A stretch of DNA of 40,546 nt, taken from assembly GCA_024698145.1 (NCBI GenBank), contig JAILRO010000041.1, positions 1 to 40,546 on the forward strand, given 5' to 3'. The stretch is from Lachnospiraceae bacterium (GTDB lineage Bacteria > Bacillota > Clostridia > Lachnospirales > Lachnospiraceae). How positions within the stretch are numbered: position 1 is the stretch's first letter; each line of letters opens with the position of its first letter. Both the position numbers and the translations under genes were made by a program. The notes beneath the pieces are model-generated. The model was not told where the DNA came from. It did no database searches and was given only the letters and a program-made list of their open reading frames with translations. This document shows, one piece after another, positions 9,551 through 24,550 of this stretch.

Positions 9551-10678
9551 CTAAGCGGTTTTTTCGTCTTTGTGTGCAAAATCAATTTGTTGAATAAGTC
9601 CTGCGGCACCGGTCGATTCATGCAAGAAGAAGCCGCTTTGTCTTACAACTGCACGTGTCACATTGTCATCAAGACTTGTATGCGAGAATTGAGTGCCTAA
9701 CGCACCCAAATATATGGCGCCGATATCTGCAGCGGCAAGCCCCATAAGAATATCTTTGCCTGTCGAATCTTTTCTCCATACTTTGAGATTGTCGAACACA
9801 GAATCATTTTCATCAATGAAGCCGTTGCCGTCTTCATCAAACTCTGCAAGTTCAGCAAAACCGTTGCCGGTTGTTGCACCGAATAGTTCTTTGCCATTAT
9901 CGATGTTTCCGTTGCCGTCTCTGTCTAATGCGAGAAAAGCGTTGCCTGATGCAAGAGAAGAAATCTCTTCTTCGACACCGTCGCCGTCTAGGTCAAAGAA
10001 CCATTGCTGGTCACTTATCGTTTCCGGAACATCATCAAGATTAATTACGAGTGGATCGGTTAACATGAAAGGCACACCTTCCGATATTTCCGACACTGTC
10101 CGGGTAAATGATCTTCCCATTGCAAGAGACATGTTAAAATCAATAGTTCTCCCATCGGCGGTCCGCACTGTTCCCACTGTATTGTAGGAAACATACTCGA
10201 CTTCGGACAAGGTAAATGTTGTTTCCTGTCTTGACCAGAGAGTTCCCGGTTGACCGATGTGCGTGGTTAAGTCAAGAACGGATTTGTCTTCAGGATTTTT
10301 GTAGGAATGTCCAAGCAGTTGCTGCTTGATGCGTTCCATAAGTTCCTCAATCTGCTTAATAAGCTGTTCGTGGAAATCCTGAATTGTCGTTTTGACGTTT
10401 GTTATCCCGTTCGTTCCCATATAAAAGTTTGAATACAAGTCCGAACCAAGATAAGATATTTGTTCATCAAAATCTGATGATGGCTCGTAGCTGTCTTGAT
10501 GGCTACGATTAGTGTTGCCGGTATAGCTTTGAAATCTCATGTAGTTAGATGCAAAGCTGCCGTAAGATACGGTTGCCGGTTCCTTCGGCATAGAGTAAGA
10601 CATCGTCCGTGATGTCTGCGTAGTGTTTTCTTGGAACCTTCCGGAACCCATGAAAACGGTGCTTGAGTCAATCTTCAT
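9551..10678 (-). CDS. Protein with DxDxDG calcium-binding (EF-hand/dockerin-like) loops
   Basis: This 375-residue protein has three calcium-loop motifs in its C-terminal half: FDLDGDGVEEE, DRDGNGNIDNG and DEDGNGFIDEND. An IYLG segment typical of the bacterial 'FDLDGDG' calcium-binding family follows. The N-terminal third is Ser/Thr/Asn-rich with a short amphipathic helix (EQLIKQIEELMERIKQQL). No signal peptide or membrane segment is visible, so it is either cytoplasmic or exported by a non-Sec route. The ATG at 10678 is preferred over a GTG three codons earlier because the AAAGGA site is only three bases from that GTG but twelve from the ATG. It stands alone between the ABC operon and the HD-GYP gene. 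Its function is unknown. Confidence 0.82.
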   Translation of the reverse strand: MKIDSSTVFMGSGRFQENTTQTSRTMSYSMPKEPATVSYGSFASNYMRFQSYTGNTNRSHQDSYEPSSDFDEQISYLGSDLYSNFYMGTNGITNVKTTIQDFHEQLIKQIEELMERIKQQLLGHSYKNPEDKSVLDLTTHIGQPGTLWSRQETTFTLSEVEYVSYNTVGTVRTADGRTIDFNMSLAMGRSFTRTVSEISEGVPFMLTDPLVINLDDVPETISDQQWFFDLDGDGVEEEISSLASGNAFLALDRDGNGNIDNGKELFGATTGNGFAELAEFDEDGNGFIDENDSVFDNLKVWRKDSTGKDILMGLAAADIGAIYLGALGTQFSHTSLDDNVTRAVVRQSGFFLHESTGAAGLIQQIDFAHKDEKTA

Positions 10679-10773
10679 ACGTCTCACTCATCCTTTCAAT
10701 TAGATTCCAGTCTAACCTGATATATATTTCGGAATAAATATCCTGAAAAATATAGTAGTTTTTACCAAATATT

Positions 10774-10850: not shown

Positions 10851-12986
10851 ATGAAAAAGCATTCAAAAAAAACTATGAGTAATTCAGCCAGATACTGCCT
10901 GCTTATTTCGGTGGGTGTTACTGTTAATATATTGTTGGCTTTACTTATGAAAGGCGTTGGATTACCTTTGTTTTTGGATACTGTAGGAACTATCGCTGTA
11001 TCAGCGGTAGGCGGCTGGTTCCCGGGAATATTGACAGCAATAGCAACCAATCTATTGTGTACAAGTTTCGATTATAATGCAATTTATTTCAGTTTTATCA
11101 ATGCACTTGTTGCAATCTTTACTTACATATACGTAAGGAAATACTCTTTTAAGAATATAATAAAAACAATTACGTTTGTTGTTATACTGGCGGTTTTTGT
11201 CGGTTTGTTAAGTTCGCTTATTCATTGGTATGTGCTTGGTGGAGTGCACAATACTATTATTGATGAGACAGCCAAAAGCTTGCAGGCGACAACCGGATGG
11301 GGACCGTATGCATCGTTTTGTGCGGTATATATGATTATCAATCTTATAGACAAAGGCTTTGCGATTTTGGTCGCAGCAGTAATAATGGCGGTTGTACCCC
11401 AAAAGGTGCTTTCAAATATTGGTCAGCAAAGCTGGATGCAGAAACCGCTTTCTCATTCGGAGGTTATGTCCATAAGGAAATGGTCCGAGTCTGTTGGTAT
11501 GTCAATGCGTACACGAATTACATTTACAATAGTTGCGATATCCTACGTGTTGATAATTGTCACGGAGTGTATTGCGGTTAATTTGTATTTTGAGCACGAG
11601 AGACAGGAAAAGACGGAGATAGCGCGGGATGCTGTTAAGTTCGCGTCGGATGTCGTGGATGCTGATAAAGTTGAGGATTATCTTAAGTATGGCAGAAATG
11701 TTCCCGGGTATGATGATACAGAAGCGCTTCTGTATAAGATAAGAGAAAATGCAAAAGGCGTTAAATATATGTATATTACGCAGGTCAGAGATGACGGTTG
11801 TTATTTCGTATTTGATTTGGATTCGCCGGATCAGGAGGGTTGCAAACCCGGAGAAAAAGCAGAATTTGAAGAAGCTTTTTTTCCATATGTCGATGACCTT
11901 TTGGAAGGCAAGCAGATAGAACCTGTAGAGTCTAATGATTTGTCAGGATGGGTGCTTACGGTATATTATCCGATTAAAAATAAAGACGGGAAATGCGTGT
12001 GTTACGCGGGAGCCGACGTTTCTCTTGATTATTTGAGTTCATATATGAAGAGGTTTCTGGTTCGATCCGTGCTTATTCTCACCGGCTTTTGTATATTGGT
12101 AATTGCTTTTGGATTGTGGATTACGGAAATGTACATGACATATCCGTTAAGTTCAATTGCAAAATGTTTGGATGATTTTGATGAAACCAATGATGACCAG
12201 GAATATCTGGAAGCTAATGTAAAAAAACTTCGCAGTTTGGATATTCATACTGATGATGAAGTTGAGCAGCTGTACAAATCTATTTGTCGAATGACTCTTA
12301 ACCAGTCAGAGCAAATGAGAAACATACGTAGATTATCCGAATCGACAGCCAACATGCAGGACGGTCTTATTATAACAATGGCAGATATGGTCGAGAATCG
12401 TGACTCTGATACAGGTGCACACATTCAGAAAACGGCGGCGTATGTTAAGATTATTGTAGAGGGACTCAAGAATAAAGGATACTATCCGGAGAAGATTACA
12501 CCTAAGTTTATGTCGGATGTAGTAAGGTCGGCACCTCTTCATGACGTTGGCAAGATTAATATACCGGACGGTATTCTTAACAAGCCTGGCAAGCTTACTG
12601 ATGAAGAATATGAAATAATGAAGACTCACACGACTGCAGGTAAGAGGATTATGGAGAATGCCATAAGTACCGTTAAGGGTGAGAACTACTTAAAAGAAGC
12701 TAGAAACATGGCGGCATATCATCATGAACGCTTTGACGGAAAGGGATACCCGGAGGGGTTGCATGGTGAAGTTATACCATTGTCTGCACGTATCATGGCG
12801 GTTGCGGATGTATTTGATGCTCTTTCATCACCGCGTGTTTATAAGCCGGCATTTCCGCTTGAAAAAGTACTTGGAATTATTAAAGAGGGTTCAGGTACTC
12901 AGTTTGATCCGAAATGTGTGGAAGTATTCATTGAAGCTTTGCCTGAGGTTAAAGTTATTCTTAAAAAATACAACGAAGAATTATAG
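10851..12986 (+). CDS. Membrane HD-GYP c-di-GMP phosphodiesterase with ECF-S-like and CACHE-like sensor regions
   Basis: This 711-residue protein probably hydrolyses cyclic di-GMP in response to an outside signal. The N-terminus (about 10-190) is a multi-helix membrane domain resembling ECF-transporter S components, including LPLFLDTVGTIAVSAVGGWFPG-like residues. A helix (about 222-243), a CACHE-like extracellular domain (about 250-395), another helix and a linker of HAMP type follow. The HD-GYP domain (about 505-705) keeps every expected metal ligand: H564-D565 in LHDVGKI, H593 in MKTH, H624-H625-E626 in YHHERFDGKGYPEGL, and D653. It is the first gene after a consensus promoter and is 15 bases from the hybrid kinase gene. 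Its HD-GYP domain is therefore predicted active, unlike the one at 17232. Confidence 0.92.
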   Translation: MKKHSKKTMSNSARYCLLISVGVTVNILLALLMKGVGLPLFLDTVGTIAVSAVGGWFPGILTAIATNLLCTSFDYNAIYFSFINALVAIFTYIYVRKYSFKNIIKTITFVVILAVFVGLLSSLIHWYVLGGVHNTIIDETAKSLQATTGWGPYASFCAVYMIINLIDKGFAILVAAVIMAVVPQKVLSNIGQQSWMQKPLSHSEVMSIRKWSESVGMSMRTRITFTIVAISYVLIIVTECIAVNLYFEHERQEKTEIARDAVKFASDVVDADKVEDYLKYGRNVPGYDDTEALLYKIRENAKGVKYMYITQVRDDGCYFVFDLDSPDQEGCKPGEKAEFEEAFFPYVDDLLEGKQIEPVESNDLSGWVLTVYYPIKNKDGKCVCYAGADVSLDYLSSYMKRFLVRSVLILTGFCILVIAFGLWITEMYMTYPLSSIAKCLDDFDETNDDQEYLEANVKKLRSLDIHTDDEVEQLYKSICRMTLNQSEQMRNIRRLSESTANMQDGLIITMADMVENRDSDTGAHIQKTAAYVKIIVEGLKNKGYYPEKITPKFMSDVVRSAPLHDVGKINIPDGILNKPGKLTDEEYEIMKTHTTAGKRIMENAISTVKGENYLKEARNMAAYHHERFDGKGYPEGLHGEVIPLSARIMAVADVFDALSSPRVYKPAFPLEKVLGIIKEGSGTQFDPKCVEVFIEALPEVKVILKKYNEEL

Positions 12987-13001
12987 GGGGTGTGCGTGTT
13001 A

Positions 13002-16000
13002 ATGGTGAACAAGAAAGTTGTTACAGCCGTATTGACGGTTATGTTTGCTTTGTCTTTAATTTCATATAACGCGAATACTTCTTTTGCAGCCGGAGAAAAA
13101 ACAACTATTGGCGGAGGATACGCGGTAACAGGTCAGATAGAAGGGGTTGGTTATGCATCTGAGTTGTACGACGCGACGAATGGATTGCCTACATCTGATG
13201 CTAATTATATTCTTGGTGCAAGTAACGGTTACATTTACATAGGTGGCTATAGCGGAATTATGCGCTATGATGGTACTGAGTTTAAGAAACTTACTTTAGA
13301 TGGTCTTACAAGTGGTAGAGGACTTTTCGAAGATAAGTTGGGTAGAATATGGGTAGGTACCAACGATAACGGTGTTGTAGTAATTGACGGTAATGAGAGC
13401 AAACATTTTACTTACAAAGACGGGTTGCCTTCTTCTTCCGTAAGAATATTTGCTGAAGATAACAATGGTAATGTATATATTGGAACGACAGCGGGTGTTT
13501 GTTATGTCGATTTGAATATGTCACTTACCGTAATAGATGATGAGAGAATCAATGAAGAACGCGTATTAAAACTGGAGTCTGATGTAAACGGAATAATATA
13601 CGGGCAAACAAAGAACGGTAATGTTTTTTCAATAAAAGACAAAAAAGTATCAGCTTTTTACAGTAGCAGTGATTTGGGAATGGAGACCATCACAACTATT
13701 CTTGTCGACAAGGATAAGGCCGGTATTGTGTATTTATGTACGGAAGGCGAAGATGTATATTATGGACTTTTTGGTAAGAAAGCATCAGACCTTGAGAAAA
13801 TATTGGTTGCACCTATTTCGAATGTGCACTGGGCAACCTATGCCTGTGATAGAGTGTGGTTCGCATCAACAACGGTTGTAGGTTATCTGGATGAGGATAA
13901 GAATTTTGTTGAAGTTAAGAATTTGCCGATGGATAGCGCAATTGAAATGATGACTGCAGATTATCAGGGTAATATGTGGTTTGCTTCTTCAACTCAAGGT
14001 GTCATGAAGATTGTAACTAACAATTTTGTTAATATAACACAGAAGAGTGGTCTGCCTGAAGAGGTTGTCAATGCGACATGTTTATATGACGGACTTCTGT
14101 ATATAGGTACAGATAACGGTGTTCGTGTTGTTGATGACAATAATTATACATTGGAGAACAAGCTCACGAAGTTTATCGGCGATTCAAGAATACGTTCATT
14201 TTATTCGGATAGCCATGGCAATATCTGGGTTGCTACATTTACCAACAATGTAGGTCTTGTGCGTTACAATAAGAACGGAACAATAACGCAGTTTACTGTA
14301 GATGATGGCATGCCCAGTAACGAAGTAAGGTGTCTGATCGAGTTAAAGGACGGTACGATATGTGCAGGTACCAATGGTGGAGTTGTATTCATCAAAGACA
14401 ATAAAATTGTCCGTACGGTCGGCTCGGAAGAAGGCCTTAAGAATACGGTTATATTGACGGTTGCTGAAAAAACAACAGGTGAAATACTTGCCGGTTCCGA
14501 TGGAGATGGAATATATGTTATAAAAGACAATGGAATAGAACGATTAGGTAGGGATGAAGGACTTACAAGTGATGTCATAATGCGAATTAAACGAGATGAT
14601 AAAAGAGATATGTATTGGATCGTGACATCCAATTCTATTCAGTATATCCAAAACGATTTAATAAAAGAAGTGACAACGTTCCCTAATAATAACAACTATG
14701 ACCTGTATTTTGATAACAGTGATAATATGTGGATACTGTCTTCATATGGAATATACACACTCAAAGCAGATGATATGTACTATGATAAGGTCAGCGATTA
14801 CAGACTTTATGCTATTGCAAACGGTCTGACCAGTACACCTACTTCCAATTCTTATAGTGCCTTGTCTGATGATGGTGATTTGTATGTATCCGGAAGATCG
14901 GGAGTGTGTAAGGTTAATATTGATCATTTCTTTAGCGGCAAAATGAAGGTTAAAGTAGATATCAGTTCGGTGTACTGCGGTGATACGGAGATTCTTGCCA
15001 ACAAAGCAGGTATCTATGAAATACCTTCTTCGGATGGACGTATCAAGATATCGGCAGCAGTGCTGGATTACACTCTTGTCAACCCTACTGTTCGTGTATA
15101 TATAGAGGGGAAAGAAAAAGAAGGTATCAACTTAAGAAGAAGTCAGCTTACACCACTTGAATATACCGGACTCAAATATGGTAATTACAAACTGCACATA
15201 CAGGTTTTTGAGAATGATGAGAAGACAGAGATGCTTAATGAAGTATTTGTCTTTAACAAGCAACCTCGCATGTATGAGCTTATTGCGTTTAAGATTATGA
15301 TATTTATCCTTGTGGCTGCGATTGCCGGCATTGTTGTATGGCGAGTAATGAAAACAACGGTTATAAGGAAACAATATGCTGAAATAAAACAGGCAAGAGA
15401 TGAGGCGGAGCGCGCCAATACAGCAAAGACAAGATTCCTTGCTAATATGTCACATGAAATAAGAACGCCTATCAATACTATTATGGGTATGGACGAGATG
15501 ATTCTTCGTGAGGATGCAACGGACGTTCCCAAGGGTTATTTTATGTCTATGATTAACTATGCCTTAGATATTCAGAATGCTTCCGAGACACTTCTCGGAC
15601 TTATAAATGATCTCTTGGATATGTCAAAAATCGAATCCGGCAAGATGCATCTTGTAGAGCAGGAATATGACGTTGTTGAATTACTGCGCTCAATTGTTAC
15701 CATGATAAGAGTCAGAAGTACCGAAAAGGAATTGATTTTTGATGTCAATGTCGATGAGATAATTCCTCGTCGTATGTATGGTGATGCGGGTAAGATAAAA
15801 CAGATAGTACTTAATCTTTTGACGAATGCCGTTAAGTACACCGAAAAGGGTGGATTTTCACTTAACCTTTCTCTTTTGGAGAGACAGGATGATGATTTGC
15901 TGATTAGCTTTTCTGTTAAGGATACAGGAATAGGTGTCAAAGAGGAGGATATGGATAAACTCTTTACGGCATATGAGCGTCTTGATGAGGAGAAGAACAG

Positions 16001-17225
16001 TGGAATACAGGGAACCGGACTCGGACTTGATATATCCAGACGTTTTGCCGAGCTTATGGGCGGAAGTCTTGTGTGTGAGAGTGTATACGGAAAGGGTTCA
16101 GAGTTCATTCTTACCATTAATCAGAAAATTGTAGATGCAACACCAATAGGAGTTTTTAAGGAGCATGATGAAGGACTTACAAAGGGTCCTTACGTTCCGC
16201 TTTTTGTTGCGCCGGATGCAGATGTTCTGGTTGTGGATGACACACCGATGAACCTCACGGTTATCAAGGGATTGCTTAAAGCAACCAAGATTTTTGTGAC
16301 GACTGCATCAAGCGGAGAGGAATGTCTTGAGAAGATTAAAGAGACGAAGTTTAATATTGTATTGCTCGATCACATGATGCCGGGAATGGATGGTCTTGAA
16401 ACCGTTGCCGAGATTAGAAAGGAATTCCCTGATCTGCCTGTATATGCACTTACAGCTAATGCGACAGTGGGAGAAGAGTTCTACAAATCAAAAGGTTTCG
16501 ATGGATATCTTTCAAAACCTATTGATAGTGAGGCATTAGAGAGAACTATTCTTAAGCATCTTCCTGAAGAAATGGTTCAAAAGCCGGAAGCAACAGCACA
16601 GGTATCGGAACTGACGGAGATACCTGAAGATAAGCTGTGGATATATGAAACCGATGGAATTGATGTTGATGAGGGTATTAAGAACTCAGGCGGTATATCA
16701 CAGTTCTTGTTCTCTCTTGGAATGTTTAGAGAGACAATTGACGGCAATGTCAAAGTAATACAAGATGCTTATGATAACGAAGATATAAGGCTTTACACAA
16801 TTAAAGTACATGCCCTTAAGAGTTCTGCAAGATTTGTCGGAGCTATGCATCTTTCAAAGCTTGCTGAGGCGCTTGAAGATGCCGGTAACAAAGAAAATAC
16901 AGAGTTTATAAAAGCCAATAACGATGATCTTATAAATGAGTACACAGCATACAAAGAAAAACTTGAAAGAATAATCGATACCGATGATGAGGAAGAAGAT
17001 GACAGAGAAGAGATTCCAAAAGACGAGTTGGATGATGCTTATAATGCCTTTAGAGATCTTATCCCTCAGATGGATTACGATTCTGTAGAGATGGTATTGG
17101 ATCAGTTAAAGGAATACAGACTTCCCAAAGACGATGCCGAATTTATGGCGGAACTTGAGAAGAAATTAAAGACTTTTGATTGGGACGGAATGGAAGAAAT
17201 GATAAACAATGTGCAAAGGAGTTGA
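13002..17225 (+). CDS. Hybrid sensor histidine kinase: Reg_prop beta-propeller, Y_Y_Y, HisKA, HATPase, REC, Hpt
   Basis: This giant one-protein phosphorelay has 1407 residues. A signal peptide (about 1-31) leads to an extracellular Reg_prop beta-propeller (about 45-640) with recurring blade motifs such as DGLPSSSVRIFAEDNNGNVYIGT. A Y_Y_Y-like domain and one membrane helix (about 760-785) follow. The kinase core has H818 in MSHEIRTP, N-box NLLTNAVKYTEKG, DTGIGV and GTGLGL. A receiver domain follows with D1123 in LLDHMMPGMDG, then an Hpt domain with H1270 in VHALKSSAR, then an acidic tail. No DNA-binding output is present. The ATG at 13002 has AGGGGG upstream, whereas a GTG at 12990 overlaps that site. 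It sits tightly between two HD-GYP genes, which suggests that output is through c-di-GMP. This propeller class commonly senses sugars or oligosaccharides; the ligand here is unknown. Confidence 0.93.
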   Translation: MVNKKVVTAVLTVMFALSLISYNANTSFAAGEKTTIGGGYAVTGQIEGVGYASELYDATNGLPTSDANYILGASNGYIYIGGYSGIMRYDGTEFKKLTLDGLTSGRGLFEDKLGRIWVGTNDNGVVVIDGNESKHFTYKDGLPSSSVRIFAEDNNGNVYIGTTAGVCYVDLNMSLTVIDDERINEERVLKLESDVNGIIYGQTKNGNVFSIKDKKVSAFYSSSDLGMETITTILVDKDKAGIVYLCTEGEDVYYGLFGKKASDLEKILVAPISNVHWATYACDRVWFASTTVVGYLDEDKNFVEVKNLPMDSAIEMMTADYQGNMWFASSTQGVMKIVTNNFVNITQKSGLPEEVVNATCLYDGLLYIGTDNGVRVVDDNNYTLENKLTKFIGDSRIRSFYSDSHGNIWVATFTNNVGLVRYNKNGTITQFTVDDGMPSNEVRCLIELKDGTICAGTNGGVVFIKDNKIVRTVGSEEGLKNTVILTVAEKTTGEILAGSDGDGIYVIKDNGIERLGRDEGLTSDVIMRIKRDDKRDMYWIVTSNSIQYIQNDLIKEVTTFPNNNNYDLYFDNSDNMWILSSYGIYTLKADDMYYDKVSDYRLYAIANGLTSTPTSNSYSALSDDGDLYVSGRSGVCKVNIDHFFSGKMKVKVDISSVYCGDTEILANKAGIYEIPSSDGRIKISAAVLDYTLVNPTVRVYIEGKEKEGINLRRSQLTPLEYTGLKYGNYKLHIQVFENDEKTEMLNEVFVFNKQPRMYELIAFKIMIFILVAAIAGIVVWRVMKTTVIRKQYAEIKQARDEAERANTAKTRFLANMSHEIRTPINTIMGMDEMILREDATDVPKGYFMSMINYALDIQNASETLLGLINDLLDMSKIESGKMHLVEQEYDVVELLRSIVTMIRVRSTEKELIFDVNVDEIIPRRMYGDAGKIKQIVLNLLTNAVKYTEKGGFSLNLSLLERQDDDLLISFSVKDTGIGVKEEDMDKLFTAYERLDEEKNSGIQGTGLGLDISRRFAELMGGSLVCESVYGKGSEFILTINQKIVDATPIGVFKEHDEGLTKGPYVPLFVAPDADVLVVDDTPMNLTVIKGLLKATKIFVTTASSGEECLEKIKETKFNIVLLDHMMPGMDGLETVAEIRKEFPDLPVYALTANATVGEEFYKSKGFDGYLSKPIDSEALERTILKHLPEEMVQKPEATAQVSELTEIPEDKLWIYETDGIDVDEGIKNSGGISQFLFSLGMFRETIDGNVKVIQDAYDNEDIRLYTIKVHALKSSARFVGAMHLSKLAEALEDAGNKENTEFIKANNDDLINEYTAYKEKLERIIDTDDEEEDDREEIPKDELDDAYNAFRDLIPQMDYDSVEMVLDQLKEYRLPKDDAEFMAELEKKLKTFDWDGMEEMINNVQRS

Positions 17226-17231
17226 TAATAT

Positions 17232-19589
17232 ATGTTTGAATTGATTAGAGAAAACCAATTAAATATTATGTTGCTTCTTTGCGGAGCGTGTGCCTCCATT
17301 ACATTGCTTTTGATAATCACAAGATTTATATCAAATAGCAGGAAGAACGTATTGATTTTAATGGAAGTAATTGCTTTCTTCCTGTTATGGTTTGACAGAC
17401 TGGCATACATTTATTCCGGCGTGGAAACAAAAAAAGGCTATAACATGGTAAGGGTGAGCAATTTTGCTGTCTTCTTTCTTACATCAGCGATAGTTTGTGG
17501 ATTTAACATGTATCTTATTGACTGGTTGAAACATGAAGGCGGAATGAAAGAGACACCTGCCAGACTCAGGTTTGTAGCGATAGTGTCTATTCTTGGAATG
17601 TTGCTTTCGATTGTATCAGCATTTACGGGCTTGTATTATTATTTTGATGAAACAAACCGTTATCATAGAGGACCGGGATTTCTTATTGCATATATCGTTC
17701 CGATTATATGCCCGATTGTTCAGTTTACGTTGATTGTGAAGAAGCGGAAACTGTTCAGTAGGATAATCTTTTTGTCGCTTGTTTTGTATATTTTCGTTCC
17801 TATCGTGTGCGGAGTAATACAGATATTTGCATACGGTATATCTATTGTTAATATGTCTATGGTGGTTGTATCCATATTCTTATACATCTTTACCTATCTT
17901 GATATTAATGATGAGGTAGAACGTATACACGAAATGGAAATGGATGATTTGAAGGAAGAACAGAACAGTATCAAGAGGCTTTTTGAACAGACGGCAACAG
18001 CCTTTGTTAAAGCTGTTGAGAGAAAGGATGATTTTTCAAAGGGACATTCTGAACGTGTTGCTACGTACGCAAGAAGAATTGCCGAGATTTATGGTAAAAA
18101 TGAAGAAGAATGTGAAAGAGTGTATTATGCTGCACTGCTTCATGATGTCGGAATTATAGGAGTTCCTGACAACGTTATCAAAAATGAGGCCAACCCCGAT
18201 AAATGGGATTACGAAGTAATGCGAAAGAAACCTGAAATTGGTAGAGAAATACTTTCCGATATTACAGAGTATCCATACCTTAGTCAGGCTGCTTATTACA
18301 GTCATGAAAGATATAACGGAACAGGATATCCGGAAGGTTTATCAGGAACCGATATTCCCGAGATTGCAAGAATAGTTGCGGTTGCGGATGCATTTGCGAC
18401 CATGACAAGTAAGAAAAGATATCGTGAAGCGAAACCGGAGTTTGTGGCAAGAGAAGCATTTGTAAAAGGATCCGGTGAAGAGTTTGATCCTGATTTTGCC
18501 AATATAATGATTAAGATAATAGATGAAGACACAGATGAGAAAAAACAGGAAGAATTATCGAAAAATGCTACGGAGCTTCATTGCGAAGAATACAGAGATA
18601 CTATTTCTTCCGGTATCGAAATAGATCGAGAGAAAGTGAAGATAAGCTTTGAGTGCGAACCGTCTAAAGAGTCGGAGGGAGCATATAGCGCACCATCGAT
18701 TATTTTGTTTGAGTCATTTGATAAACGAGTTCATAATAATGCAAAGACTATAAGTGCTTATTATTATCTTGAATACGCAGAGGTGTGGTTTGATAATAAT
18801 ATTATTGATACTGCAGCAAGAAAAATCGAGGTTACAAAATCCGAGATAAGAGAAGCTTCCGATGATTCACACTATGAAATAACAGCGGCCAGATATGAGG
18901 ATCATTTAAAAATTCGTATGACAAGCCCGACTTACATGAAGGAAATTATTGTTGCACTGCCAAGTGGTTCAAAAGGTGCATATATCGGCATTACCGGTGA
19001 GCATTGTGATATTACCGATATCGTTGTAGAATATACGGGTGTGAGTGTTGGTACTTATGACATTCCAAGAATCGCAGATGAAATCAGTTATATTGATCGT
19101 ATCGAATCTGATATTAAGAATATACAGATTGACAGAACACGTTCGGCGACAACTGAAGGAATCGAAATCGAAGACAGGTTACAGATCAACTTCCACACTA
19201 TGAGTTTGCCGGATTCAAAGTTTGTTTGGCATTGCCCATACATCGTGTTATTCTACTCTGATAACAATATGGTTGGAGGACCTAATTATCGCGAGTACGC
19301 ACTTATCAAATTAAATGGTGAGAATGAAGTTAAAGGCAATTATGCGGAGAATAGATTCAATATGAAGCGTAAGGCTGAATTCCCTGGTTGGGAAGAGTGG
19401 AAGACTGTTAATCAGAAAGGTATGGAGTGCGAGGTTGTTATAGAAAGGAGTGGCAATCGCATTGTCACGACAACCGAGAATCTCGGTATTGAAATTAAGA
19501 ATATTACTACGATTAACGAGTTAAAAGATAATGTATGCGTCGCTCTTACAGGCGATCAGTGTGCATTGACGGATATAAGATTAAAGTAA
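17232..19589 (+). CDS. 7-TM HD-GYP-like protein with degenerate metal site and duplicated C-terminal domain
   Basis: This 785-residue protein has seven predicted membrane helices (about 1-230), a short coiled linker, an HD-GYP domain (about 250-440) and a long C-terminal part. The HD pair is present (H304-D305), as are GTGYPEGL (about 363-370) and D386. Three normally invariant positions are altered: the Lys of HDxGK is Ile308, the His of the MKxH motif is Lys333, and the first His of HHE is Ser357. Phosphodiesterase activity is therefore doubtful. Residues about 460-602 and 642-785 form two related copies, each beginning GIEI and ending with a pattern like TGEHCDITDI or TGDQCALTDI. They resemble a beta-sandwich but I do not recognise the family. 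The gene starts six bases after the hybrid kinase, so they are probably one operon. Confidence 0.88.
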   Translation: MFELIRENQLNIMLLLCGACASITLLLIITRFISNSRKNVLILMEVIAFFLLWFDRLAYIYSGVETKKGYNMVRVSNFAVFFLTSAIVCGFNMYLIDWLKHEGGMKETPARLRFVAIVSILGMLLSIVSAFTGLYYYFDETNRYHRGPGFLIAYIVPIICPIVQFTLIVKKRKLFSRIIFLSLVLYIFVPIVCGVIQIFAYGISIVNMSMVVVSIFLYIFTYLDINDEVERIHEMEMDDLKEEQNSIKRLFEQTATAFVKAVERKDDFSKGHSERVATYARRIAEIYGKNEEECERVYYAALLHDVGIIGVPDNVIKNEANPDKWDYEVMRKKPEIGREILSDITEYPYLSQAAYYSHERYNGTGYPEGLSGTDIPEIARIVAVADAFATMTSKKRYREAKPEFVAREAFVKGSGEEFDPDFANIMIKIIDEDTDEKKQEELSKNATELHCEEYRDTISSGIEIDREKVKISFECEPSKESEGAYSAPSIILFESFDKRVHNNAKTISAYYYLEYAEVWFDNNIIDTAARKIEVTKSEIREASDDSHYEITAARYEDHLKIRMTSPTYMKEIIVALPSGSKGAYIGITGEHCDITDIVVEYTGVSVGTYDIPRIADEISYIDRIESDIKNIQIDRTRSATTEGIEIEDRLQINFHTMSLPDSKFVWHCPYIVLFYSDNNMVGGPNYREYALIKLNGENEVKGNYAENRFNMKRKAEFPGWEEWKTVNQKGMECEVVIERSGNRIVTTTENLGIEIKNITTINELKDNVCVALTGDQCALTDIRLK

Positions 19590-19617: not shown

Positions 19618-21960
19618 ATGTTTCTTGATGAGTTAAAAGTTGGTGAAAACGCAATTGTAAAAAATGTCGGAGGTCAAGGCGCACTTCGCCAACATTTCCT
19701 TGATATGGGAATTATTCCCGGAACCCGAATTAAAATAATTAAGTTTGCGCCTATGGGAGATCCCGTAGAAATCAAACTTCACGATTATGAACTGACACTT
19801 CGTATCGCAGAAGCAGGGCAGATTGAGGTTGACAAGAAGCAGGCGGAGGATAAAGAAGAGCCTGTAAATGTTAAGCAGGAAAAGACTTACAATGAGCATC
19901 CCGGACTTGGTGAGGGAGGAAGATTTCATCAGAAAGGAAGCGGTAATCCGTTGCCGGAGAATGAACAGATTACATTCGCTCTTGTCGGCAACCAGAACAG
20001 CGGAAAGACAACGCTTTTTAATCAGTTGACCGGAAGCAGACAACATGTCGGTAATTTTCCCGGTGTTACGGTTGACAGAAAAGACGGTGTTATTAAAGGA
20101 CACCCTAATACACTTGTAACCGATCTTCCCGGTATTTACTCGATGTCGCCTTACAGTAATGAAGAGGTGGTATCGCGTAATTTTGTGTTGGACGAAAAAC
20201 CGAAAGGTATTATCAATATAGTAGATGCAACTAACATAGAGAGAAACCTTTATCTTACAATGCAGCTTTTGGAAATGAATATTCCGATGGTTGTGGCTCT
20301 TAATATGATGGACGAGGTGCGCGAGAACGGTGGCTCTATCGATGTCAACAGGATGGAGCAAATGTTGGGAGTTCCTGTCGTGCCGATTTCTGCAGCAAAG
20401 AATCAGGGTGTTGACGAGCTTGTAGAACATGCACTTCATGTTGCTTATTATCAGGAGAAACCGCTTCGTCAGGATTTCTGTGACGAGAGCCAAGACGGTG
20501 GTGCCGTGCATAGATGTCTGCATGCGGTAGTTCACTTGATTGAAGATCATGCAAAAGAAGCCGGAATCCCGGTTCGTTTTGCGGGTTCTAAGGTAATTGA
20601 GGGAGATAAACTAATATTAAAGCCTTTAAAGCTTGAAGATAACGAGATTGAAACGATAGATCACATTGTTTTGCAGATGGAGAAGGAACGTGGTCTTGAT
20701 AAGAATGCAGCAATTGCGGATATGCGATTTGCATTTATTGAGAAGGTTTGCAGATATTGTGTTCACAAAATGGGCGAGAGTAAGGAACGTATCCGAAGTG
20801 AGAAAATCGACAGGATTTTAACAGGCAAATACACAGCGATTCCTGCGTTTTTCGGAATCATGTTTTTGGTGTTCTTCTTGACATTTAACGTTATTGGTGC
20901 GTTTTTGCAGGAACTGTTGGAAAACGGTATTGAAATGCTTGGCGGATGGCTTTCTGATGTCATGCAAAATGCCGGTGTTAATGAAGTGCTTAAGAATCTT
21001 GTAATTGACGGTATATTTGAAGGTGTCGGTAGTGTGTTATCTTTCCTACCGATTATTGTTGTAATGTTCTTCTTTTTGTCGCTTCTTGAGGATAGCGGAT
21101 ACATTGCACGAGTTGCCTTTGTAATGGATAAATCGTTAAGAAAGATTGGACTTTCGGGACGAAGTATCGTTCCAATGCTTATAGGATTTGGTTGTACTGT
21201 GCCGGCGGTTATGGCAACACGTACGATGCCAAGTGAGCGAGATAGGAAGATGACTATACTGCTTACACCTTTTATGAGTTGTTCGGCAAAGCTTCCTATA
21301 TATGCTTTCTTTGTAAGTGTATTCTTTCCAAAGCGCGGCGGACTAGTGATGATTGCTTTATATGCGTTTGGTATTGTTATGGGAATTCTTGCGGCACTTC
21401 TTTATAAAAAGACACTGTTTCGTGGTGAAGCGGTTCCTTTTGTGATGGAACTTCCAAATTATCGTATGCCCGGTGCGAAGAATGTAATAAGACTTTTGTG
21501 GGGAAAATCCAAAGATTTTCTTCAGAAAGCTTTTTCGGTTATTCTTATAGCTACAATTGTTGTCTGGGTATTTAGAAGTTTTGATATACATTTTAATCCG
21601 GTGACAAACGAGGCGGACAGTATTCTTGCACTTTTGTCCAAAGGATTTGAACCGATTATGAAACCGCTTGGTCTTGGTGACTGGAGAATATGTAGCGCGC
21701 TTATAACAGGATTTATTGCAAAAGAAAGTGTAGTATCAACTTTGCTGTTGTTGTTTAGCAATGGTGTGGAGAGTGCACTTACCACTCTTTCGGCAGTTGC
21801 ACTTTTGGTATTTTCATTACTTTATACACCTTGTGTGGCAGCAGTTGCATCTGTTAAAAGAGAGCTTGGAGCCAAGTGGGCATTGGCAGTTGTTATATGG
21901 CAATGTCTGGTTGCGTGGGTTGTGACATTTGCCGTGTATCATATTGGTTTGATGCTGTAA
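19618..21960 (+). CDS. feoB: Ferrous iron transporter, FeoA-FeoB fusion
   Basis: This 780-residue inner-membrane GTPase transporter takes up Fe(II) under anoxic conditions. Residues 1-75 form a FeoA SH3-like domain (LRQHFLDMGIIPGTRIKI), normally a separate protein, joined by a charged linker. The FeoB G-domain has G1 GNQNSGKT (124-131), G3 DLPGIYS, G4 NMMDE and G5-like ISAAK. The membrane part has the two Gate motifs with conserved cysteines, GFGCTVPAVMATRT and PFMSCSAKLPIYAF. The start has GAAAGG upstream, and the gap to the preceding gene is 28 bases without a terminator, so it may be co-transcribed with the c-di-GMP genes. No Fur/IdeR/DtxR box was recognised immediately upstream. Confidence 0.96.
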   Translation: MFLDELKVGENAIVKNVGGQGALRQHFLDMGIIPGTRIKIIKFAPMGDPVEIKLHDYELTLRIAEAGQIEVDKKQAEDKEEPVNVKQEKTYNEHPGLGEGGRFHQKGSGNPLPENEQITFALVGNQNSGKTTLFNQLTGSRQHVGNFPGVTVDRKDGVIKGHPNTLVTDLPGIYSMSPYSNEEVVSRNFVLDEKPKGIINIVDATNIERNLYLTMQLLEMNIPMVVALNMMDEVRENGGSIDVNRMEQMLGVPVVPISAAKNQGVDELVEHALHVAYYQEKPLRQDFCDESQDGGAVHRCLHAVVHLIEDHAKEAGIPVRFAGSKVIEGDKLILKPLKLEDNEIETIDHIVLQMEKERGLDKNAAIADMRFAFIEKVCRYCVHKMGESKERIRSEKIDRILTGKYTAIPAFFGIMFLVFFLTFNVIGAFLQELLENGIEMLGGWLSDVMQNAGVNEVLKNLVIDGIFEGVGSVLSFLPIIVVMFFFLSLLEDSGYIARVAFVMDKSLRKIGLSGRSIVPMLIGFGCTVPAVMATRTMPSERDRKMTILLTPFMSCSAKLPIYAFFVSVFFPKRGGLVMIALYAFGIVMGILAALLYKKTLFRGEAVPFVMELPNYRMPGAKNVIRLLWGKSKDFLQKAFSVILIATIVVWVFRSFDIHFNPVTNEADSILALLSKGFEPIMKPLGLGDWRICSALITGFIAKESVVSTLLLLFSNGVESALTTLSAVALLVFSLLYTPCVAAVASVKRELGAKWALAVVIWQCLVAWVVTFAVYHIGLML

Positions 21961-22029: not shown

Positions 22030-23100
22030 ATGTGGTTAGTTAATTTTATCAACAAAGACGTTGTTGCACAGAACGAGAATAAGCGCAGCATGGTTGCTTT
22101 GAGGATATTGTACATGGTTTTGTTTGTTGCTTTTGCAACAGATGTTTTGGCATTTGGAGTGGATGCCTTTAATGTATTTCCATATAGAATTTTTGGCTTC
22201 TTTGCTGTTAATATAGTGCTTTTTGCATTAACCTACAATACGAGAACAAGAACATCGGTAATAATGTTTGTGTTTTATGTTTTTGCATGGACTTTGGCGA
22301 TGATTCCCTGTTTTGGATGGAGTGCGGGAATGCAGAATTATTATATCCTTATTTTGATGTTATGCTTTTTTGCAGTACCCGGAAAACCAGTGTATAAGTT
22401 CGTGTTAGCATCGATTGTTCTTGTTGCAAGAATTGCGACGATAGGAATATATGGAGGCGTTAAGCCGATTGTCGAGATAGCATCAATTCAGGATAAGATA
22501 TTGCAGATTAGTAACATTTCTGCCGTATATATAGCAATTATATTGATATCCTACATTTACAGTCATGATGAAATTGAAGCTGAAGATAAGCTTATGAAGT
22601 ACAACGACAAGCTTAAGAAAGAGGCGGGTACGGATCAATTGACTGGACTTGTCAACAGAAGAAGAGCGCTCGAATATTTGCAGGAACTTCGAGATGCTAA
22701 TTTTTCAAGTTTTATAAGTATTGCTATGGGTGATATTGACTTCTTCAAGAAGGTTAATGATACATATGGTCATGACGCAGGAGATGAAGTGCTTAAGTCG
22801 GTAGCTAATACAATGAAGGAAGTCTGCGGCTCAAAAGGACTTGTATCGCGCTGGGGTGGAGAAGAGTTTTTGATAATATTTGCAGATGTCAACGGTGATG
22901 ATGCATTTATTGATATGGAGAAATTAAGACGTGAGATTTCTAAGAGGACAATAGTTGTGGGTGAGCAGGAAATCAATATAACCATGACGATTGGACTTAC
23001 GGAATACAATATCAAAAAGAACATTGAGAATGCTATCAAAGAAGCAGACGAGAAATTATATCTTGGTAAGACGAACGGAAGAAACCAGGTAGTATATTAA
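22030..23100 (+). CDS. Membrane GGDEF diguanylate cyclase
   Basis: This 356-residue enzyme is predicted to make cyclic di-GMP from two GTP. About six membrane helices (residues 20-185) form an uncharacterised sensor region, followed by a short helical linker and a GGDEF domain (about 200-356). The active site is GGEEF (276-280), preceded by SRW, and DQLTGLVNRR and GDIDFFKKVNDTYGHDAGDEVL are typical. The RxxD product-inhibition site expected five residues before GGEEF is absent (GSKG in that place). The start has an AGGAG site. It is followed after 34 bases by the FapA-like gene. It is the only GGDEF in the window and the natural source of the signal read by the riboswitch and PilZ protein. 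Confidence 0.94.
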   Translation: MWLVNFINKDVVAQNENKRSMVALRILYMVLFVAFATDVLAFGVDAFNVFPYRIFGFFAVNIVLFALTYNTRTRTSVIMFVFYVFAWTLAMIPCFGWSAGMQNYYILILMLCFFAVPGKPVYKFVLASIVLVARIATIGIYGGVKPIVEIASIQDKILQISNISAVYIAIILISYIYSHDEIEAEDKLMKYNDKLKKEAGTDQLTGLVNRRRALEYLQELRDANFSSFISIAMGDIDFFKKVNDTYGHDAGDEVLKSVANTMKEVCGSKGLVSRWGGEEFLIIFADVNGDDAFIDMEKLRREISKRTIVVGEQEINITMTIGLTEYNIKKNIENAIKEADEKLYLGKTNGRNQVVY

Positions 23101-23134: not shown

Positions 23135-24550
23135 ATGGAGAACAAGCAACAGACAGATCCAATCAGCGAAAATCCAATTAAGATATTTATATCCGAAGAT
23201 AAGATGAATGCTTATCTTTTCCTCGCAATTCCTCAGGAAGGACAGGAAGCATACAAAGAGTCGGAGATTTATGACGCAATTGCCGCAGCGGGAGTTAAGG
23301 GGCAGGTTAATAAGGATGTCATTAGTCAGATGCTTTCCTCGGGATGGTATGGAAGTAAGAGACTTATATGTGAGGGCATACCGGTTAGAGATGGTGTCGA
23401 CGGATATTTTGAGTATTTCTTTCATCAGAAGGATGAGAAGAGCGGTAAACCGCGCGTGTTAGACGACGGTTCTGTTGATTATACAAGTGTCAATACGGTT
23501 GGTACCGTATCAGAGGGAGACCTTATTGCAATCTATCATCCGGCAATACCCGGGCATTTTGGATATACGGTTACGGGCGAATTATTAAAGCCTAAGATTC
23601 CCAAAGGTTATCCGGTGCCGCAGCTTAACGGTTGTCGATATGATGAGAGTACATACTCTTATTACGCAACAATAGATGGTAAGGTTGAGGCTACCAATAC
23701 TAAGTTGCAGGTAACTCAGACTTTGCAGATTAATAAGAACGTTAACGTGGCTTTTGGAAGCATTTATTTCATGGGCGATATTGAGATATACGGTGATGTA
23801 GATTCGGGTGTAGAGATAACTGCGAGTGGCTCCGTTACAATAGGTGGAAGCGTTCAGGGCGCAAGTATCATGGCAGGTGAGAATATCACGATACGTGGAG
23901 GAATACTGGGTGATGACAATACACGTATTTCCTGCGGTGGAGACTTAGAAGCACGTTTCATGCAGTATGTCAATGTTGTTGCGGGTGGCAATGTTACGGC
24001 TAAGTCAATTCTTGACTGTAATGTTCGTGCAGGAGGAATGGTATTGATTGAAGATACCAACGGACTTATATCGGGCGGTTTCATTTACAGTACCAAGGGT
24101 ATTGACGGACAGGCATTTGGTAATAAACGTTCGGTTAAGACTATACTTTCTGCCGGAAAGAATAATAAGGTATTGGCTGATAAAGTGGAGTATCCAAGGC
24201 TTATACAGGAGCTTGATTTGAAGCTTACGGGAATTAACAGCCGAGAGATTCAGTTAGACAGAGAAGCCAAGAAGGATCCTACCAAAAAGAAATCCAATAT
24301 GCTTCATATAATTAGACAGAACAAGGCAAGAATATTGGCTGAGAAGAAACAATTAGAGGCTGTATATGCAGCATATGACAACATGAATAATTCGGCAAAC
24401 GCCAGGACAATAATAAAGGGTAGGAAGTTCTTCCCGGGTGTTATTGTGCAAATCGATAACAAAGACTATTCAATAGATTTTGAAATGATACTTGTTTCAT
24501 TCAGGAATAATGAAGAAGGAATTTCCTATGTTCAGGAGAGTGATGAATGA
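23135..24550 (+). CDS. FapA-family protein (DUF342)
   Basis: This 471-residue soluble protein of the DUF342/FapA family has an N-terminal domain, then a right-handed beta-helix region rich in Gly/Val repeats (about 190-330; for example GGSVQGASIMAGENITIRGG), then a coiled-coil-like basic helix (about 345-420) and a short C-terminal beta domain. Members are called polymerase-associated or flagellar-assembly-type proteins, but their biochemistry is poorly defined. No signal peptide is seen. The start has a GGAGG site. The stop codon overlaps the next start by 4 bases (ATGA), so translation of the DNA polymerase gene is probably coupled to it. Its place after a GGDEF gene suggests a c-di-GMP-related or surface role; this is inference. 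Confidence 0.88.
   Translation: MENKQQTDPISENPIKIFISEDKMNAYLFLAIPQEGQEAYKESEIYDAIAAAGVKGQVNKDVISQMLSSGWYGSKRLICEGIPVRDGVDGYFEYFFHQKDEKSGKPRVLDDGSVDYTSVNTVGTVSEGDLIAIYHPAIPGHFGYTVTGELLKPKIPKGYPVPQLNGCRYDESTYSYYATIDGKVEATNTKLQVTQTLQINKNVNVAFGSIYFMGDIEIYGDVDSGVEITASGSVTIGGSVQGASIMAGENITIRGGILGDDNTRISCGGDLEARFMQYVNVVAGGNVTAKSILDCNVRAGGMVLIEDTNGLISGGFIYSTKGIDGQAFGNKRSVKTILSAGKNNKVLADKVEYPRLIQELDLKLTGINSREIQLDREAKKDPTKKKSNMLHIIRQNKARILAEKKQLEAVYAAYDNMNNSANARTIIKGRKFFPGVIVQIDNKDYSIDFEMILVSFRNNEEGISYVQESDE

Follow-up and report, generated by a model that had tools for sequence, protein, structure and literature searches.

The window, by which we mean the whole 40,546-nucleotide stretch of Lachnospiraceae DNA analysed here, encodes a 785-residue membrane protein whose HD-GYP domain almost certainly does not hydrolyse c-di-GMP (Table 1). 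We draw this from residues mapped onto mutants of the active enzyme PmGH and from a conserved group of relatives. On balance, we think that the protein is probably a pseudo-phosphodiesterase that persists as a membrane subunit of an operon-like module, where its HD-GYP domain would serve as a folded switch. Inactive HD-GYP proteins are already known, namely PA2572, VC1087, VCA0895, Bd1817, and DvhD, according to the excerpts of the literature cited below. As far as our searches go, the novelty lies in a large conserved degenerate group with its own consensus and architecture, and in the link between this group and one phosphorelay/phosphodiesterase cluster. Literature searches that combined HD-GYP with Lachnospiraceae, with Butyrivibrio, or with pseudoenzyme found nothing on topic by title or abstract, and no paper on HD-GYP function in rumen bacteria was found by title or abstract in the literature searched.

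That degenerate GGDEF and EAL domains can act as receptors is well established, but studies of dead HD-GYPs are few, and DvhD (2026) is the only HD-GYP receptor recognised in the literature searched. The family described here, whose genetic context recurs, offers a large natural series in which intact domains grade through partial loss into dismantled ones. This series allows one to ask which residues a signalling HD-GYP needs after catalysis is lost, and it also bears on the role of c-di-GMP in rumen bacteria.

Table 1. Positions in the window of the pseudo-HD-GYP gene, its domains, and the two cluster genes upstream
Feature	Position	Strand	Basis
7TM pseudo-HD-GYP protein with tandem lectin-like C-terminal domains	17232..19589	+	785 aa ORF
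N-terminal seven-helix membrane domain, residues 1-227	17232..17912	+	AF2 model, loop charges
Degenerate HD-GYP domain, residues 258-421	18003..18494	+	Pfam HD_5 match
Tandem concanavalin-A-like (LamG/galectin-like) beta-sandwiches, residues 440-785	18549..19586	+	AF2 (pLDDT 90.6), Foldseek
Intact D-T-G (trinuclear-type) HD-GYP protein, 711 aa, cluster's first gene	10851..12986	+	
Hybrid sensor kinase (Reg_prop propeller, HisKA, HATPase, receiver, Hpt), cluster's second gene	12990..17225	+	

Catalytic residues and domain architecture

Membership of the protein in the HD-GYP family follows from a Pfam HD_5 match far over the cut-off (98.5 bits vs. 27.2, E 4.6e-28) and from the HD-GYP fold of its model, for which the top Foldseek ranks are PA4781 (4r8z), DvhD (9rbz), and PmGH (4mcw). 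A preliminary description, made from the sequence alone, had reported that H304-D305 and GTGYPEGL are retained while three catalytic positions are damaged, and the translated reading frame bears it out at each point. The Lys of HDxGK is I308 (H304-D305-V-G-I308), the His of MKxH is K333 (M330-R-K-K333), and the first His of HHE is S357 (S357-H358-E359), whereas H272, H304, D305, H358, and D386 are retained and the GYP motif is present as G365-Y366-P367. That description missed a fourth essential loss, A389 at the position of PmGH D308. Thus, I308, K333, S357, and A389 stand where PmGH has K225, H250, H276, and D308. Among the seven metal ligands (PmGH H189, H221, D222, H250, H276, H277, and D305) five are kept. 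The protein lacks both the complete ligand set and the K225 and D308 residues expected of an active phosphodiesterase. Excerpts of the PmGH study report that Ala at H250, H276, K225, or D308 singly abolished or nearly abolished c-di-GMP hydrolysis, whereas changes at E185 or D305 merely weakened it (Bellini et al.; PMC4159591). The E185 position is occupied here by F268, and Phe is described in the same excerpts as usual there for the Y/F HD-GYP subfamily.

The AlphaFold2 model of the full protein, built with 59 sequences (mean pLDDT 88.2, pTM 0.65), begins with seven long helices, and the loop between TM4 and TM5 contains two short strands. The last of these helices extends as a stalk over residues 205-263, which is followed by the HD-GYP domain and then by two beta-sandwiches. 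Lys and Arg together number 3, 4, and 5 in the loops assumed to be inside and 2, 2, and 0 in those assumed to be outside. These charges fit, and suggest, an N-out/C-in topology, in which case the HD-GYP domain and the C-terminus should be cytoplasmic. When the C-terminal pair was modelled alone, its best Foldseek matches were laminin LG4-5, tandem galectins, and neurexin; as TM-scores over the whole pair reach only 0.20-0.25, we claim the concanavalin-A-like fold class alone. The seven-helix part has no Pfam match at E values up to 1 and the C-terminal pair has no confident one, and Pfam names considered for both were dropped as none was convincing. A Foldseek comparison of the model of residues 1-240 with GPCR structures gave weak matches (best E 0.005-0.007, over the 0.001 line), a general seven-helix likeness at most. 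Elsewhere, relatives of the seven-helix domain occur with GAF-GGDEF (L064), with HD-GYP and a receiver (L061, L062), and with a weak His_kinase start that is under the cut-off (L063). This domain may serve as a general-purpose sensor that Pfam has not named.

Relatives and the pattern of loss

Relatives were compared in 113 rows, of which 112 are distinct proteins that carry the C-terminal pair and one is a short 7TM-HD-GYP relative that lacks it. With gaps counted as lost positions, which affects five dismantled rows and the cut row L135, 15 rows keep all eight catalytic positions, two have lost one, two have lost two, and 94 have lost at least three, in a set that includes the best 80 of 542 confirmed matches to the C-terminal query. 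Ninety-two of these 94, each without at least three of the eight positions, lie on one side of a single branch; since the 80 loci are the best of 542 matches, 92 of 113 is not a prevalence. The branch is supported by SH-aLRT values of 98 (LG+G4) and 99 (LG+C20 mixture) in trees built from the 7TM and C-terminal columns only, with the HD-GYP columns excluded. The outgroup of these trees is not clean, one row (L170) having joined it, and the 92 rows can be called a clade only if the root lies among the intact rows. Outside this group there are separate losses in L131, in L171, and in the pair L054/L163, and L166 and L169 have each lost one position. Within it, five members have dismantled the domain: approximately 50 HD-GYP residues including MKxH, HHE, and GYP are gone, whereas the 7TM and C-terminal parts are retained.

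Two further sets were drawn up. Removal of the five dismantled rows and L135 from the 92 leaves 86 rows. Addition of 20 proteins from other genomes enlarges the whole to 133 distinct proteins, of which 106 pass the 7TM test; the 27 that fail comprise 21 intact rows, three that begin at a contig end (L112, L128, and L135), one that is cut (L212), and two that are degenerate (L102 and L183). From this enlarged set come 84 degenerate rows, with L131, L171, failures of the 7TM test, and rows gapped at 304, 333, or 357 left out.

As a reference for the pattern of loss, we took the 80 positions that are conserved across 90% or more of 32 intact members and scored their retention in the 84 degenerate rows. 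Mean retention is 0.47 at nine catalytic positions vs. 0.76 at the 71 others (Mann-Whitney p 0.005, which is indicative because the rows are related). The H250 position is kept in none of the 84 and is Lys in 64, H276 is kept in one and is Ser in 55, and K225 is kept in seven and is Met or Leu in 56. The GYP Gly, the GYP Pro, and E359 are kept in all 84, and I375, D419, and others are likewise invariant. Retention of the other metal ligands is often high (H221 95%, D222 83%, D305 87%, and H277 65%), which indicates that the metal site is broken rather than erased. Some noncatalytic positions have shifted too (L258 to F, D263 to E, and Q403), and the degenerate group has a consensus of its own with F258, E263, K264, M/L308, K333, and S357. 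Chance or a sequencing error is rejected by the counts at H250 and H276 and by an orthologue of 88% identity that has the same four changes. A private mutation is also rejected, since orthologues carry the changes too.

The usual set of mononuclear HD proteins is H..HD..D. Hence, it might be supposed that catalysis has been altered rather than lost, with H272, H304, D305, and D386, all present in the 785-residue protein, forming a mononuclear HD site that hydrolyses another phosphoester. We regard this as improbable given that H272 is kept in only 40 of the 84 relatives, that Lys replaces H250 in most of them, and that loss of H250, H276, or K225 was singly sufficient to abolish activity in PmGH.

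Selection on the degenerate domain can be gauged from pairwise dN/dS, which for the HD part of 14 degenerate pairs is 0.02-0.20, within the range of the other two parts (simple Nei-Gojobori estimates, with several dS values near or above 1). In two pairs of dismantled members, dN/dS is 0.11-0.20 in all parts. As judged from these comparisons, the HD-GYP fold and the GYP loop are under purifying selection, and the pattern of substitution looks like a replaced consensus and not like random decay. The notion of a functionless, dying gene copy could draw on the range of three to eight lost positions among degenerate relatives. We consider it very improbable: reading frames remain long and open across many genomes, for each of the three parts, dN/dS in the 14 pairs falls well under 1, and invariant positions and gene order recur. 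Simple decay is therefore set aside on the strength of dN/dS and of the selective loss of catalytic residues.

Named records of degenerate 7TM members number 66, of which 50 are assigned to Lachnospiraceae, ten to Oscillospiraceae, four to Spirochaetota, and two to no family, with the caveat that metagenome-assembled genomes may be misassigned. Ruminococcus albus and Butyrivibrio are among the strain names. In an even sample of the window's family, the C-terminal domain was found at E 1e-40 in 29 of 298 genomes. The 46 proteins concerned (45 and that of the window) comprise 22 that are intact, three that have lost one or two of the eight positions, 20 that have lost at least three, and one (L212) that is cut and unreadable. 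In the genome of the window, contig C30 encodes the nearest intact paralogue that shares the C-terminal domain (48% identity over residues 241-784). The same genome encodes another HD_5 domain (L014, G000:C3:2543-3043), with the odd motifs LIDIGR and YQHERVDGRGK and without GYP, which is probably also inactive to judge by these motifs. As a separate observation, the window gene and L050 9863-12214 differ by a dS of 0.25-0.39 in the HD and 7TM parts and of 1.79 in the C-terminal part; for the intact paralogues of the same two genomes (L056/L057), the values are 0.02 (HD part) and 0.91 (N-terminal part). This unevenness suggests that parts of genes have been exchanged.

The ligand pocket and known inactive HD-GYPs

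The closest guide to what a dead HD-GYP domain might do is DvhD of Desulfovibrio vulgaris (9rbz, 9rc0). In excerpts of its description, HD is changed to SQ, there is no metal and no hydrolysis of c-di-GMP, and the ligand is bound with an effective Kd of 99 nM and a change in the dimer (PMC13090378). We mapped DvhD by alignment, numbering chain residue 1 as DvhD 491; with this offset, every named residue falls into register. Of the nine c-di-GMP contacts named in those excerpts, four are identical in our protein (Y621, M646, Y652, and R653 are Y366, M391, Y397, and R398), two are conservative (R650 is K395 and Y523 is F268), and three differ (L577, K582, and E668 are P322, Y327, and S414). Among the 84 degenerate rows, Y366 is retained in 88%, M391 in 87%, and R398 in 76%. 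All five pocket positions checked, the GYP Tyr and four others, are retained in 47 of the 86 degenerate relatives, and the Tyr is lost in ten, nine of which keep at most two of the other four. Such a pattern is what would be expected if a ligand pocket had been retained by most lineages and discarded by others. A tree-aware test of co-loss of the pocket residues was not significant (median p 0.125), and these residues are retained about as well as other conserved positions (median 0.89 for the 71 noncatalytic ones), not above them. In relatives that have lost the Tyr or approximately 50 HD-GYP residues, the pocket cannot be the function, and the dismantled members indicate that the 7TM part and C-terminal pair can persist without it. 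Taken with the analogy to DvhD, these comparisons leave binding of c-di-GMP by the 785-residue protein a real possibility, although one that we would place slightly short of an even chance.

On the published excerpts, DvhD and our protein share the HD-GYP fold, a metal site that is incomplete by sequence (here two of the seven shared ligands are missing), a membrane anchor, and a helical stalk before the HD-GYP domain. They differ in that DvhD has a dCache-PAS architecture and HD changed to SQ, whereas our protein has seven helices at the N-terminus, keeps HD, and ends in the lectin-like beta-sandwich pair, and its gene adjoins those of a kinase and an active HD-GYP. PA2572 of Pseudomonas aeruginosa, also of the HD-GYP family, is described in excerpts as inactive on c-di-GMP yet regulatory (PMC3411652, PMC3774798). 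By its name, this REC-YN-GYP protein has a changed HD motif, which ours keeps, and these excerpts mention no membrane part for it. No Response_reg match in Pfam, and hence no N-terminal receiver of the PA2572 type, was found in the 785-residue protein. VC1087 and VCA0895 of Vibrio cholerae and Bd1817 of Bdellovibrio resemble our protein as natural HD-GYPs, and in the excerpts consulted phosphodiesterase activity was undetected in them (PMC4212101, PMC3774798) and binding of c-di-GMP by the inactive Bd1817 was undetectable (PMC3774798). The two Vibrio proteins lack the HD motif, and all three proteins have other architectures and are described there singly rather than as a conserved group tied to one gene cluster. 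PmGH itself (Persephonella marina, 4mcw) has a homologous domain and serves as our reference for metal ligands; in the excerpts, it is an active trinuclear enzyme, and our protein is without four of its essential residues (PMC4159591).

A recurrent gene cluster and the module it may encode

The pseudo-HD-GYP gene is the last of a cluster with the recurrent order intact HD-GYP, Reg_prop hybrid kinase, often a double receiver, and 7TM pseudo-HD-GYP. In the window, the stop-to-start gaps are three bases between the HD-GYP and kinase genes and six between the kinase and pseudo-HD-GYP genes. The preliminary description had called the HD-GYP protein at 10851 an intact paralogue. Intact it is, as it keeps every metal and catalytic position and has D-T-G at the PmGH E185 position; a close paralogue it is not, being of another subfamily with 33% identity over the domain. 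In 43 distinct homologues of this protein (at least 40% identity, over 550 aa), H189, H221, D222, K225, H250, H276, H277, and D308 are kept in all 43, and E185 (as D) and D305 in 42. The double receiver, approximately 252 aa in length, lies between the kinase and 7TM genes in many relatives; its second half matches Pfam Response_reg and its first half does not.

To be counted as a neighbor, a gene had to give a BLAST match on the same strand no more than 7 kb away, with minimum identity and coverage of 45% and 8% for the kinase, 40% and 50% for the HD-GYP, and 45% and 50% for the receiver. Upstream sequence of 3 kb or more is available for 79 degenerate 7TM members. Every one of them follows the kinase gene, the active HD-GYP gene, or both in the same orientation, 74 with the kinase and five with the HD-GYP alone, some loci being too short upstream to show both; a further 12 members have too little upstream sequence. 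The double receiver was found for 40 of the 79. Because most of the 79 descend from one event, the association extends over a handful of lineages and does not represent 79 independent cases. All four 7TM members with one or two losses are in the cluster. Of nine intact 7TM members with enough sequence, four are inside it and five outside, the latter being the only members seen outside; thus, the cluster does not require a dead domain.

This association bears on the possibility that the dead HD-GYP is a contact scaffold without a ligand, kept only as a dimerisation surface. Such a surface might, for example, act at the membrane to hold or gate one of its cluster partners (the active HD-GYP, the kinase, or the double receiver), and binding of c-di-GMP would be irrelevant. 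We consider this unlikely but a serious alternative. The recurrent cluster with an active HD-GYP and a kinase would fit it, as would the five dismantled members, which keep their 7TM and C-terminal parts with the low dN/dS given above. Excerpts on PA2572 describe a protein contact by an inactive HD-GYP protein, there through its REC domain (PMC3411652), and the degenerate L069, L070, and L105 directly precede an intact paralogue with the same C-terminal pair. On the other hand, most members keep the GYP loop, and over half of the 86 relatives keep every pocket position checked. We reject the idea that an intact partner carrying the same C-terminal domain is obligatory, since at E 1e-40 none is found in ten of the 20 even-sample genomes that have a degenerate member. 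For regulation of the intact enzyme by contact, which the preliminary description had also raised, the recurrent cluster offers circumstantial support, with the qualification that this enzyme is of a distant subfamily. Its other proposal, a c-di-GMP-binding or signalling scaffold, fits the predicted loss of catalysis, the apparent purifying selection on the fold and GYP loop, and the six identical or conservative DvhD contacts, but is weakened by the loss of the pocket in some relatives.

We return to the preferred reading, a pseudo-phosphodiesterase that serves as a folded switch. The module would consist of the pseudo-HD-GYP protein, the active HD-GYP phosphodiesterase, the Reg_prop hybrid kinase, and, in many relatives, the double receiver. 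The 7TM part may sense a signal or pass it across the membrane, and the long helix 205-263 would couple it to a dimeric HD-GYP domain. As in DvhD, the dimer might bind c-di-GMP without a complete metal centre, and binding would rearrange it in a way read by, or relayed via, the C-terminal lectin-like pair, with the neighboring active HD-GYP setting the local level of ligand. We only infer the dimer, the direction of the switch, the partners, and the output. A guess would be that the Lys at the H250 position could replace the charge of the metal near D305 and D386. A bolder and rather doubtful extension would make these proteins a membrane receptor family of gut and rumen Bacillota and some Treponema metagenome-assembled genomes, one for which no name was found in the libraries and literature searched. 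In such a family, a seven-helix sensor would drive a dead HD-GYP as a metal-free c-di-GMP receptor with Lys333 at a former metal ligand, encoded in one operon with a phosphorelay and a dedicated, active HD-GYP, and with output via the cytoplasmic galectin-like pair. If this were true, signal input, c-di-GMP eraser, and reader would be made together.

Several candidates from the surroundings were rejected. The promoter/terminator argument for an operon was dropped as uninformative (30 promoter-like sites vs. 37.3 in shuffles and eight terminator-like sites vs. 6.6). A conserved downstream gene was rejected on 68 loci with at least 2.5 kb, among which the largest group of linked reading frames, with the intact paralogue of L105 at its head, is present in 12. 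HD-GYPs use iron, and a FeoA-FeoB fusion lies directly downstream in the window (19618-21960); it was rejected as a fixed partner because it is downstream only there and in the closest relative. It is followed by a diguanylate cyclase with an intact GGEEF motif (22030-23100) and by a protein with a weak MinC-like stretch (23135-24550), possibly of the FapA/DUF342 kind. Named by eye, proteins with ferredoxin-like Cys motifs are encoded 3' of the 7TM gene in seven of the 68 loci (e.g., L104) and ABC transporter-like ATPases in eight. Upstream, on the minus strand at 9551-10687, lies a frame of 378 aa without a Pfam match whose DxDGDG-like stretches may bind calcium. Residues 18-186 of the protein at 10851-12986 resemble the S component of an ECF transporter (NF045596, 64.8 bits, under the cut-off of 180).

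The same genome has a second copy of the cluster (G000:C57:85063-92245, L221 9064-16246) with an HD-GYP (53% identity), a kinase (58%), and a double receiver, and no 7TM gene was found alongside it on contig C57. Finally, L214 3278-7408, on the minus strand, encodes a protein of 1376 aa in which a Reg_prop propeller, Y_Y_Y, an intact HD-GYP, and the same C-terminal pair are joined in one chain, a further tie between the kinase's type of sensor and the 7TM pseudo-HD-GYP family.
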